Made by a program: the position numbers and the translations under genes
Shown: piece after piece, positions 29,832 to 62,949 of the stretch
Numbering within the stretch: the stretch's first letter is position 1
How the letters are laid out: every line of letters starts with the position of its first letter
NCBI GenBank assembly: GCA_019671135.1
Contig: JAHRHY010000016.1
Coordinates: forward strand, 372,001-436,000
Origin: Linnemannia hyalina
Taxonomy: Eukaryota; Mortierellomycota; Mortierellomycetes; Mortierellales; Mortierellaceae
Direction: 5' to 3'
DNA length: 64,000 nt
The notes under the pieces: generated by a model
What the model was told of the DNA's origin: nothing
Seen by the model: only the letters and a program-made list of their open reading frames with translations
The model's database searches: none

Positions 29832-31960
29832 TCACGCCGTCTTCGGAAAGAAGGGTCGGCTGGTGGGTGACACGTTTGTGGGTCGGAGAAATTGATCATA
29901 CGGCAGCAAATCCTCCTCCTTGAGGCGTGGCGGTGTCCTGACGTACCGGTGTAAATCCAAGGCATCCAGAATACGCTATTGCCAAAGTGAAAGGAAAAGG
30001 AGTGTTATGTCTCTACCTCGCCACATAATCCTAGAGAAAGAGTTCATCATACCCATTTGAAGATGGTGTTTACCTTTAATGCTCTGAAAGCCTCGATACA
30101 CTGGATCATTCCTCTCATATCTTGAAGGTCTCGTGGAAGGTAGCAAATAGAGACCTGGCGCAGGATATACAATTCTGACAAAAATTTCCTGATGTACAGT
30201 GCCACCTTGCGACCTAAAATGATAACTCAACACAGAATACAGCAACATAAGTTATTAGTGGGTGTATACTGACAAGGGAGGGGAGCAATTGTAGCTGGTC
30301 CATCTTACCAAACACTTGAACAACGGGTACTACTCTGATAGATCGTCGAGCGCGGAGGTCGGATTCAATGCAATCCTCGCCAAAAGACGATGGATCCCAA
30401 AAGTCTTCCAAGTACTTGGACTGGCACTTGTTATATTTCGGGCCTTTGGCCTCCGGGTATGCAGCATTAAAGCCTTCCTTCATGACCGTGCCGTCCGCCT
30501 TCAGGGACTCCCCTCGACGCAGCTTGCTCGCTTCGGACGGGCAATTAGCCCAGATCACTTCGTACGGCGCTCGTCCTTCTGGAAACAGCTGCGTGAAAAT
30601 GGCATCTAGGACATCACGAGCAAAGCCATCCTCATTCTTGAACGCCCATGACATCGCTTCAACCGATAATTTGTTCGCGCTATGTCAACGACAGAGTCAA
30701 GCGAGTCAACAGCAATGTTAGTCGCTACTGTTATGGAACTAGTGGCACGGACAGCAGAATAATATTACTTACAGAGTCTGGAACAGAGGAACGATGCGCT
30801 CTTCGTCGTCGTCTTCTACCGCTCGGGATCGAATCTTGCCCGCGTCTGAAAGTTCCCGTCCAAGTTCGATACACAGGAGGACTTCACTAGGAGAAAGTCG
30901 AATCTTCAGGCCATTGATCGAGTTGCAAATAGATCGATGGGAATGGTCATTTATGCCAGGAAGGGCGGTGGCGGTGTGCCAGACATAGTTACCAGTACTA
31001 TTTCCAAACGCACAAGACAAAAAGTTAAGTCGCACAGTTCCGAAACAGGACAGGATAGAGGTACCGCGTTCTTTCTTTGACTTGTAGGAGTAGATGCACA
31101 TTGGAGATTTTAACCTTTTTCTTACCATTGTTGATAATCTCTTCTGTATTGGCCTGCAGCACCTTGAACGCTTTACCGACGTCAAAGCCTTCCAGCTGAG
31201 ATAGATCGGTAATGTCTTTGCTACATCGAAGATGAACGCTTCGATTTGAATGTGGGCATATCAACGTTTGAAACCCCCTATTAAATAATAGCGTTGAGCG
31301 AAATCAGCTTTGGTCCCTGTGCAAGCACTCAACATGGCACAGCCATGCTAGTCAGGCAACTTGAATTCAACGAAGGAAAACGTACCTTTATCAAGATCAC
31401 GCTCCAGAGTCGACTGCGCTTCGGACTCGCTCGTCATATCAGCTACCTGGGATTTCATCTGTCGATGAGTGAAGGTACGGAGATCTCGCCTGTACTGGCG
31501 CTATTTGCCAAAAATAAAAATAAATAAAAAAAAAGGTAAAATAGAAGCGGATTCTACATTGTAGCACTGTAGCTGAACTTGGAATGCGCCTGTAGGAAGG
31601 GCCAATGGAGCACCTACGTCTTGAATGGCATCTCGCCAGATTTCCATGCGTTCATTGGACGAAAACTTAGACATGCGGTTTCGAATGAACGTGCCCTTCT
31701 CGCCCAAACTCTTCAACAGATCCTGTGCCGCGCCAGTCCATAGATTGTCGAGTGCCTAACGTCAGATGTGTCGGCTAGGATGCCCCACCGCTTAGCCATC
31801 ACGTGTCTGACGTATGTAGGCAGGTAATCGTGCCCATCTCAGTTAATGTTCGTCGTGTGCGCTGGGTGGAATGACAGGAGCGAGGAGAGTCGAGTTTCGA
31901 GGACAGGCGATTTATTAACTTCGGTGATGTAATTCTCGCGCCAATTGAAGCTAGGTTGCT
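29832..31960 (-). pseudogene. Large multi-exon gene of unknown family, decayed at its 5' half
   Basis: Exons read by frame and splice sites: 31558-31755, 31386-31500, 31126-31277, 30773-30997, 30309-30679, 30074-30213 and 29832-29975 (stop TGA at 29832-29834). The last four junctions keep phase, with phrases such as NYVWHTATALPGINDHSHRS, FTQLFPEGRAPYEVIWANCP, YIRKFLSELYILRQVSICYL and RILDALDLHRYVRTPPRL. Upstream lesions: in-frame TGA near 31845 (TTNIN*DGHDYLPTYVRHVM), a one-base loss near 31755, and phase conflicts around the 31126-31277 exon. I do not recognise a domain. The length and regular exon structure suggest a real family, possibly transposon-borne. Confidence 0.5.
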
Positions 31961-33105: not shown

Positions 33106-35870
33106 ATGGGACTGAAGGGGTTCTACCCTTGACTCCGCAAGAAGAGAGACTACCATCCCACGCTTCGTCACCCCATGCACCACCACCTGCCTGACGGCGC
33201 CACTATTCACGTGGACGTTCTGTCCTTCTTCAATAATATTCGCGGGATCAACATCAGGCATACAGATAACAAGACAAGGGCGCATGCCATCCTCTTTGAG
33301 CATCTTAAGAAATATGGCAACCCCTCGCGCATGGTGTTCTATGTCGACGGCGCCCCTGCTCTCGAGAAGAAGGAGACTCACCACGAGCGAAACGAGAAGC
33401 GAGTCAAGGCCCTCAAGACCGCCAAGGTCGCCGTCGAGACGCTCAGCAACCGCGTCAGTCAAGGCAAGCCGCCCACCAAGCAGATGTTCAAGAATGTCGA
33501 GAAGAGTCTCCGTGGAGGATTCAAGTAGTCCCTCCGAGATCGGGAGGACTTCATCAATTTTCTGCAGGGTCAACAGCTTGACGCGCGCCTGTGCAGAACC
33601 GAGGCCGACATTGACATCGCTGCAGAGTGCCAACCCAAGGACGTTGTTCTATCTCAAAACTCGGACTTCTTCGCTTACGATTCGGTCACGACGTTCTGGC
33701 GTCCTGTGGGCAAGCGGTACGAGGTCAAGGTCCTCGAATACAACAGGGAGGCGGTGCCGGCCCAGATAAAACTGTCGACCGCCAAGCTCACTGCCCTGGC
33801 ATGCGTCTCGAGTAATGACCAGAACAAGAATATCCCGTCGATGGGGATTGCCACCAACTACAGCATTATTAAGGATCTACTCGATGCAGGTAAGAGCAAA
33901 TGTCTTGCCAGCATGCCCATATCGCCTCTATTCCTTGTGGACATGGCCAGACTCATCATGACTCCTTTTTCTGAACCCCTTCTCTGTTAGACGTGCCGTC
34001 CCTGGTGAAGGAGTATCTCAAGAGTCCACGCGTGGTCTGCAGCTATCAAGAAGGCATCGACTTCACGGCCTCTATTCTCGTGTTCACTACAATGACTCAG
34101 GAGATTGCTGTTCCAGCGGGCGTATCCTCTGTTCTGTTGCCGTCATCACAGCCAGCGACGCCTTTGACGATCTTCCCTGCATCTTCCCTGTCCTACGAGC
34201 TGCTCTGTCAGCAGTACAAGTCGGTCAAGAACCAGTGTACCGGAGCCAAAGAACAGAAGAGCTAAGGGAATTTGGGCATCAAGAGGTAACAGATTAGGTG
34301 ATATGTGATTCTCTCACGTGACCTCTGATCTGACTTTCCCATCACTTGCAAAAAGTATATCATGTTGTTTGCCTATTATCACACTCTACGACATGCTCTA
34401 GCGACGCCAAACCCAATCGGCAGGGCAAGCACAGGGAGTTTAGACTGCACGGTGTGATCGACCCGCCAGCCTACCAGCCTGGAGTCTCACGACTGGTGCA
34501 TTAGCCACGATACTCGTTCAAGGCACGGCCGAAACCGCAGCAACATAAGCCACCGTATATCTGCAAGCAATACCAATGGAAGCCGTACATGGCGGAGTTG
34601 AGGAAGGCTGCAAAGAAGCGGCAGCGTGAGGCTCGGCGACTCAAAATGGGAAATGAGATAGCCAAGAAGCCGCCGCCCAAGATCGATGAGATGGACAACC
34701 AAGTGGTTGCTCGAGTCGACCACCAAGCAACTCTATCACCCAATCAAGATGATGTATCGCAACTGCTCGCTCGCCCTTGAGAAGAAAGTAATGTGAAGTT
34801 GTCAATCCGAGCTTTGTCACGGACGAAATGAGAAGTGAGCTACTTATCAAAACTTATTTCGAATCAATGTCTTTTTTTCCCGTTACAATATATCAACTCA
34901 CAAGCGGATGGCTAACCTGGCACGGCACTTCCCAAGATCTACCCTAAGCCGCCTGCCATCGAGAACTACCTGCCTCTGAACAAGGCCAACGGCGGATCGA
35001 GACGTATTGCGCCCCTCTCACCCCTGGCAGCTAGCTACGCTGACTTCTCTGAGCAGTATTTGATCTCACTGTTCTGGTCCTGGCTGACCCTCAAGGACAA
35101 GATCCGGAGTATGATGGTCGAGGATCGATACTTTCAGGATCCAGCCATAGTTCCTTCGCAGGTAGACGCTCTGGACTGGCTGGCCAAGACAATGTATGGC
35201 CGCCTCGTCACCGCTTTCCTATTGGATGTCGAACTCCCATCAGACAAGCACGGCAAGGAAAGACCCTGGGAACGCCTCGGATGTCTGCAAACCAAGGCGT
35301 TTGACTCCAAGGAGTGGCACGGCAAGAGGTATATTCTCCAGGGCTCGATCCGAACCAATGGCCGTTTGCTGCAGCTGCTGGGGTTCAAGCTGAAGGAGCT
35401 CCAGTCTGTCCGGTATCGCCGTGTTCCCGAGGACAAATTGCCCTACTCGCTCGTCACCACCATTAGTGACACCACCAGTTACCTGACCGAGGCTCGCAAT
35501 GTCTTCTCCACAGCTGCAGATGTGGAGAGCCAGTTGACTGCTAATCCGAGTCAGGTTGCGGTGCTGTCGCCCGATTTGGGTACCTCCTGCGTCGTCAGTG
35601 CCACCATCTCGCTCCCACCTGACCGGACCCCTGCAACATTGACGCAACCCCATGGTAAGGGGGGCGACGAGAAGTAGAAGAAGAAGTCAAGGCGAGTCAA
35701 GCGGAAGCCTAGGGATCGGAAGCAGCGGAGGGCTAGGCAGAAGTTACGCAAGCTGGCCAAGCAACCTCAGTCGACTCGGTACTTTGATCTGGTGGTCAAG
35801 TGTAAGGCCGTGTCGCGGCCAACCAGGACGATTTTCCTGAATGCTTGCCCAGTCCGAACACGACTATCCT
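33106..35870 (+). pseudogene. XPG/PIN-like nuclease joined to a TnpB/Fanzor-like RuvC region, decayed
   Basis: Starts MGLKGFYP, the FEN1/XPG-type start, with TGA at 33130-33132 where Trp is expected. The PIN/XPG part has acidic residues in HVDVLSFF, FYVDGAPALEK and TEADIDIA; the usual DSD is NSD in LSQNSDFFAYDS. TAG at 33526-33528 again sits at a likely Trp (GGFK*SLRDRED). An intron (about 33890-33990) keeps phase into VPSLVKEYLKSPRVV. A linker runs from 34400 to 34780 with another TAG at 34502-34504. From about 34935 the frame reads PPAIENYLPLNKANG, later YILQGSIRTNGRLLQLLGFK and SPDLGTSCVV (about 35567-35600). SIRT(D/N)G followed by a D-x-G motif is the TnpB/Fanzor layout around RuvC-I. The expected RuvC-II Glu, zinc finger and RuvC-III Asp are not found downstream, so it is truncated. 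The fusion call is inference from motif order. Confidence 0.55.
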
Positions 35871-62552: not shown

Positions 62553-62949
62553 CTACGGGACAATGGGCGCATAATTTACGTCACCGAAGCGACGAAACTT
62601 GTCCTTCATCCACGCCATCACATCCCGCTCCGTCTTTTCCTACCCTTCAATCGTTCGCTTTTGTACCCCTCTACCGAGCTCTCCATCCCTCTCATAATCT
62701 TACCCAAAAATCCTTGATTGAGCTTGCAGCCTTAGAGGGCCGGGCCGACCTTTCGAGTACGTATAGTCGAGGAAGAGCCTCAAGGCAAAAGGAGTCGTGC
62801 TTTGTATAGCTGGCTGGACCACGCGTTTCTGTTTCCAGATGTGTATTGGGCAGGTTTTGTGCTTGCTGGATTCCAAAGCTGAATCCAAACGGCCGGTGCC
62901 TTGTTAACTCGAGGAAATGCCCCTGTCTGGACCTCTGGTCGGGGAACAC
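62553..62949 (-). CDS. Possible two-exon 3' gene fragment
   Basis: An upstream frame ending ASSIKDFW joins in phase, through a 64-bp intron (GTAAGA...GGGTAG, 62640-62703), to EKTERDVMAWMKDKFRRFGD ending PIVP and TAG at 62553-62555. The last exon has convincing composition. The 5' part is uncertain and no family was recognised. Confidence 0.35.

Follow-up and report, generated by a model that had tools for sequence, protein, structure and literature searches.

Fanzor proteins are the eukaryotic cousins of CRISPR-Cas12, and in known Fanzors, TnpBs and Cas12s the RuvC domain is, to our knowledge, the sole cutter. Here we describe a dead gene copy at positions 33106-35837 of a 64,000-nucleotide stretch of the Linnemannia hyalina genome (the window), together with the Mortierellaceae gene family to which it belongs. 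The proteins of this family almost certainly consist of an N-terminal nuclease of the FEN1/EXO1/XPG type joined to a complete Fanzor1-like RuvC nuclease. Taken as a whole, our best explanation is a two-nuclease Fanzor1-like fusion carried by inverted-repeat transposons, with the role proposed below, and we give it a probability of roughly 0.8.

According to the background sources on Fanzors (PMC10711439, PMC10432273, PMC3627910, PMC11423790), these proteins follow the pattern D-X(125,275)-[TS][TS]-xx-C4 zinc finger-X(5,50)-RD, and their RuvC-I motif is almost exclusively DPG. In the Ealt group, as described there, the RuvC-II glutamate lies six residues before the zinc finger, and active Fanzors use such residues. 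PpFz1 is reported to bind cyclophilin through a RuvC-insertion (FRI) domain.

When the host genome was searched, the Fanzor part gave 69 matches and the PIN part 77. The locus L031 yields a five-exon gene model of 1335 amino acids, which is 100% identical to a deposited Linnemannia hyalina protein, KI688_002751 (P0001). This intact relative matches the nuclease part of the window copy at 33106-33879 (tblastn E-value 4.6e-41) and the Fanzor part at 34955-35623 (2.0e-30), so the resemblance is not due to chance. A sequence-only reading of the window had proposed a PIN nuclease fused to a TnpB/Fanzor-like RuvC segment and suggested that full-length relatives might exist elsewhere. The proposed fusion is supported, and such relatives do exist, both at L031 and as independent gene predictions in several genera.

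All 40 homologues from the protein search belong to Mortierellaceae genera; that search relies on shared five-residue words, and the family may occur more widely. Profile searches with each half add more Mortierellaceae genera and metagenome proteins (among the 120 of 171 matches listed in one search and 103 in the other). One predicted protein, P0038 (KI688_006789), carries a TNB domain with a Crinkler N-terminal domain and an NTPase-like stretch behind it, and may be a merged gene model. In a literature search that covered few subscription papers, no paper was found on a Fanzor or TnpB in Mortierella, nor on a fungal Fanzor with XPG, and looser searches gave no title naming a nuclease-Fanzor fusion. 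The fusion is new among Fanzor1-like proteins.

The N-terminal domain has the PIN-type nuclease fold with the I region, as in the RAD2/XPG/FEN1 family. What we take to be the seven acidic active-site residues of human FEN1 were placed here by motif and are conserved as follows, counted over those of 40 rows that have a letter at the position: D36 12/15, D81 19/20, E166 22/23, D168 23/23, D185 19/25, D187 23/25 and D235 27/29. We consider it likely that the FEN1-like half is catalytically active.

In the C-terminal part we find the REC, RuvC and TNB fold of the TnpB/Fanzor superfamily (Fanzor1). Structure prediction, the check proposed by the earlier reading, gave a Fanzor1-like RuvC fold. P0001 fits the published pattern with D969, T1215 S1216, C1219/C1222/C1236/C1239 and R1245 D1246. 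In the alignment A6, which holds 125 proteins selected for coverage, the RuvC-I aspartate is present in 121 of the 122 rows with a letter there, while 120 of 122 have Gly or Ala where the canonical RuvC-II residue would stand. The Ealt glutamate is found in 24 of 29 such rows of the alignment A1 (49 of 61 in A6, which is rich in fragments), and the RuvC-III aspartate in all 29 rows of A1 that have a letter there. The RuvC-II glutamate, zinc finger and RuvC-III aspartate that had been named as residues to look for are thus present in the relatives, the glutamate at its alternative position. RNA-guided binding or cutting of DNA by the Fanzor half is predicted with fairly good confidence. A further glutamate, P0019 E600 (P0001 E1144), is near-invariant (121/123 in A6); it sits in the long helix that precedes the RuvC-II strand. 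Profile searches of the PDB with the alignments A2 and A6 reached the TnpB-like L79 (a Fanzor2), TranC and Cas12phi, and did not reach SpuFz1 by sequence; as modelled, the link to Fanzor1 is one of fold, not of sequence profiles.

The two halves also travel together in the genome. A PIN match lies upstream on the same strand for 63 of 91 genomic TNB matches, and in 57 of these 63 pairs the spacing is 3.0-3.42 kb; two PIN matches lie within 6 kb on the other strand, and three lie downstream. This count includes 91 of 91 TNB rows (one below the cut-off), 72 of 77 PIN rows (five secondary fragments were dropped) and 10 of 89 rows of a further search. Across 17 proteins the distances of the PIN part and of the RuvC part are correlated (r 0.55, 1 of 5000 permutations; 0.79 without P0014). 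Further, the gene family is under purifying selection. The median ratio of nonsynonymous to synonymous substitution (dN/dS) is 0.21 for PIN (9 pairs), 0.33 for REC-RuvC-I (16 pairs), 0.205 for RuvC-II (18 pairs) and 0.155 for TNB (20 pairs), where the pairs are not independent.

The family is the sole recognised gene of terminal-inverted-repeat transposons. L031 and L042 are alike over 4.8 kb at 97.8% in differing surroundings. L032 has inverted repeats at both ends (GGGTGCAGGACAATGG... and its partner) with ATTTGCAT on either flank (a match of nine bases), and L042 has AGGCATCC at its flanks. The earlier reading spoke of mobile or domesticated nucleases, and it is the mobile alternative that these target-site duplications and dispersed copies uphold. 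The spacing of copies reveals three near-uniform groups of about 11, 9 and 8, with equal scores and frames; recent amplification of these groups is therefore likely, their near-identity being judged from scores, frames and spacing. The target site of L042, AGGCATCC, resembles another copy's end motif, and so L042 seems to have inserted into the end of a relative. At C1:239131-240600 a pair of 3'-end motifs, inverted relative to each other and separated by 1.47 kb, is possibly a short non-autonomous element with like ends. An origin of the elements among MULE (MuDR-type) transposons is one candidate: a Mortierella hygrophila protein adjoining a copy shows a sub-threshold SWIM match (E-value 0.037), though no second SWIM motif turned up when 20 loci and the window were searched locally.

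The 3' end of the element carries a motif that has a UUCG loop and contains GTGACGT...GCGCCCATTGTCC; it is present in 17 of 20 loci fetched and at 127 sites in the genome, compared with 0 for the reversed pattern. Among the 100 of these sites listed, 27 follow a TNB match within 1.5 kb and 73 do not. Gene-less ghost loci are also reported for SpuFz1 (PMC10432273). The 3' end folds as a hairpin (mean z-score -3.0, 16 sequences), and native arms outpair swapped arms (18 of 20000 permutations). On average, the sense strand exceeds the antisense in stability by more than composition accounts for (mean difference -8.1 versus -4.5, standard deviation 0.8; 0 of 300 shuffle sets; 12 families), a signal that comes from about half of the families. 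For the arm swaps, 16 of 18 ends were used in the folding and 12 family representatives were exchanged; one hairpin comparison used 11 families (the non-folding L041a was dropped), while the strand comparison used 12 and one window site. Pair counts derive from single folds and hence lean towards pairing. The hairpin is a candidate omega-RNA, and we think this reading probable. Within the window, a copy of the 3'-terminal motif lies at 62556-62589 on the minus strand, with four mismatches to the consensus and without a recognisable PIN-Fanzor gene, resembling a ghost end; a degenerate one (nine mismatches) lies at 31919-31952 on the plus strand, about 1.2 kb upstream of the dead gene.

Several observations speak against our explanation. 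A clean target duplication is seen in only 2 of 16 loci and none in the other 14, and no transposase was recognised within the elements or next to them. In some pairs dN/dS is as high as 0.87-1.03. The second Asp pair of the PIN domain is variable (lowest at D185), and 5 of 29 lettered rows of A1 have K or G at the Ealt position. Of 125 RuvC-I triplets in A6, 64 are DLG, 25 DGG, 21 DAG and only 5 DPG; since the canonical DPG is not the rule, we place the family as a Fanzor1-like variant and not as a canonical Fanzor. In the arm swaps only 2 of 12 families paired best with their own left arm, and 7 of 12 hairpins have no strand bias above about 1.5 standard deviations. RNAalifold, run on 18 three-prime ends aligned with MAFFT, gave six pairs, with no covarying pair or double change, and it is for this reason that single folds, arm swaps and the strand comparison were used.

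Some of these points would fit other explanations. The 3' hairpin could be a folded-back terminal inverted repeat for a transposase, with no omega-RNA: the motif is the right terminal repeat, with a matching left end in L031, L032 and L042, the 73 listed sites without a nearby TNB match are what copies like miniature inverted-repeat transposable elements would give, and in L039, L041b and L047 the antisense fold is at least as significant. We hold this to be rather unlikely, given the average strand difference, the better pairing of own arms, and the published Fanzors, which have an omega-RNA at this end and many ghost loci. It is improbable that the Fanzor half has no nuclease activity of its own and only binds DNA under RNA guidance to bring the FEN1-like nuclease into place; the Gly or Ala at the canonical RuvC-II position and the substituted Ealt residues would agree with it, but the RuvC-I Asp, Ealt and RuvC-III Asp, at the frequencies given above, are the residue set of active Fanzors. 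Domestication of the family by the host, for a role in the cell, would explain why the genes are intron-rich, diverged and under purifying selection. However, insertion boundaries carry target-site duplications, dispersed copies are near-identical and many copies, including that in the window, are broken, which makes domestication very unlikely.

Equally, the PIN nuclease and the Fanzor might be two neighbouring genes of one element, fused only by gene prediction. Database entries with one half do exist (P0021 for the nuclease, P0019 for the Fanzor), and the fusion is known here from genome sequence and gene models. However, all exon junctions of L031 preserve the reading frame, its model is identical to the deposited protein, exons 1 and 2 together encode the EXO1-like fold (model residues 38-349), in exon 3 the conserved NRYRTV block precedes the first Met of the open frame, and the fusion is predicted independently in several genera. 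Because of these exon phases, this fold, this upstream coding and these predictions, the evidence argues for a true single-protein fusion. In addition, at C23:1074399 a PIN match lies inside a 1398-residue open frame with a TNB match 3.1 kb downstream, and we regard two separate genes as highly improbable.

The window copy itself is a dead member of the family, with all features on the plus strand. The seven motifs quoted in the sequence-only reading are all there, and their interpretation is supported as well: MGLKGFYP (33106-33129), HVDVL (33208-33222), VDGAP (33343-33357), TEADID (33598-33615), NSDFF (33658-33672), GSIRTNG (35342-35362) and SPDLGTSCVV (35567-35596). The remnant of exon 1, with the FEN1/XPG-type PIN domain, occupies 33106-33889, as seen from the tblastn match, own-genome relatives and motif positions. 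Intron 1 (GT...AG, 33890-33990) is recognised by its splice letters and has the same position as in the intact paralogue L031. The exon 2 remnant (33991-34285) holds the C-terminal part of the nuclease domain, with a P0028 tblastn match at 33990-34256, and a linker exon remnant (34400-34697) is matched by P0015 at 34499-34588. An open frame at 34916-35674 covers the REC/WED-like part and the RuvC-I strand, with the Asp of SPDLGTSCVV retained, and is followed by a degraded RuvC exon end (35675-35837). The stops that had been named are verified in the letters, at 33130 and 33526 in exon 1 and at 34502 in the linker exon; others lie at 34263 (exon 2), 34778 and 34829 (linker frame) and 35675. About 0.65 kb of L040, the closest paralogue, has no counterpart in the copy at 34697. 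Beyond 35837 the two are no longer homologous and the copy is therefore without the last exon, which agrees with the C-terminus having been called missing: the alternative RuvC-II Glu, the zinc finger, RuvC-III and the 3' end are all absent. Of the span first given, 33106-35870, the start stands, while the end is about 33 bases beyond the last homology. Between the copy (33106-35837) and L040, synonymous divergence (dS) is 0.07 in the PIN part and 0.23 in the REC-RuvC part, and this inequality suggests recombination or gene conversion between copies.

How might the two nucleases work together? The Fanzor half would bind a structured RNA made from the 3' end of the element, with the flank beyond the end as guide, and RuvC would open and cut matching DNA, for example the vacated site. 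The FEN1-like domain could then trim the resulting 5' flap or displaced strand, and such trimming might help repair to retain or copy the element. That the protein is a two-nuclease RNA-guided enzyme, in which the guided half cuts and the FEN1/XPG-type half acts on a flap, bubble or nick, we put at slightly under even odds; flap trimming as its specific role is more tentative. If true, transposons would have spread through the Mortierellaceae a natural protein of the Cas12 family that has its own structure-specific nuclease built in. A recurring, selected flap-nuclease fusion would mean that evolution has coupled RNA-guided targeting to end processing, would bear on how Fanzors retain or copy transposons and would be a natural template for editors controlling DNA ends. 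Since several intact members can already be found among deposited hypothetical proteins, the idea is testable at once.

Compared with known systems, the family shares with Fanzor1 (SpuFz1, GtFz1, PpFz1) the fold of its C-terminal two thirds, the displaced RuvC-II Glu, the C4 zinc finger, the RD motif and the residence in inverted-repeat transposons with additional gene-less ends. Unlike Fanzor1, it has a FEN1/XPG-type nuclease fused N-terminally, and RuvC-I is mostly DLG, DGG or DAG instead of DPG. The transposase-less Fanzor1 elements of Mucoromycota with MuDR-like repeats (ROr-4, PBl-3, MCi-4; PMC3627910) are similar in having inverted repeats, no recognised transposase and the 8-9 bp target duplication found here; they differ in that the section on them in that source reports no nuclease fusion. 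The N-terminal domain has the fold and acidic active-site positions of the RAD2/XPG, FEN1 and EXO1 nucleases, but sits in a mobile, Fanzor-bearing protein. PpFz1 is likewise a fungal Fanzor1 with an acquired accessory domain; there the accessory is a binding domain inside RuvC, whereas here it is a second nuclease placed before REC.
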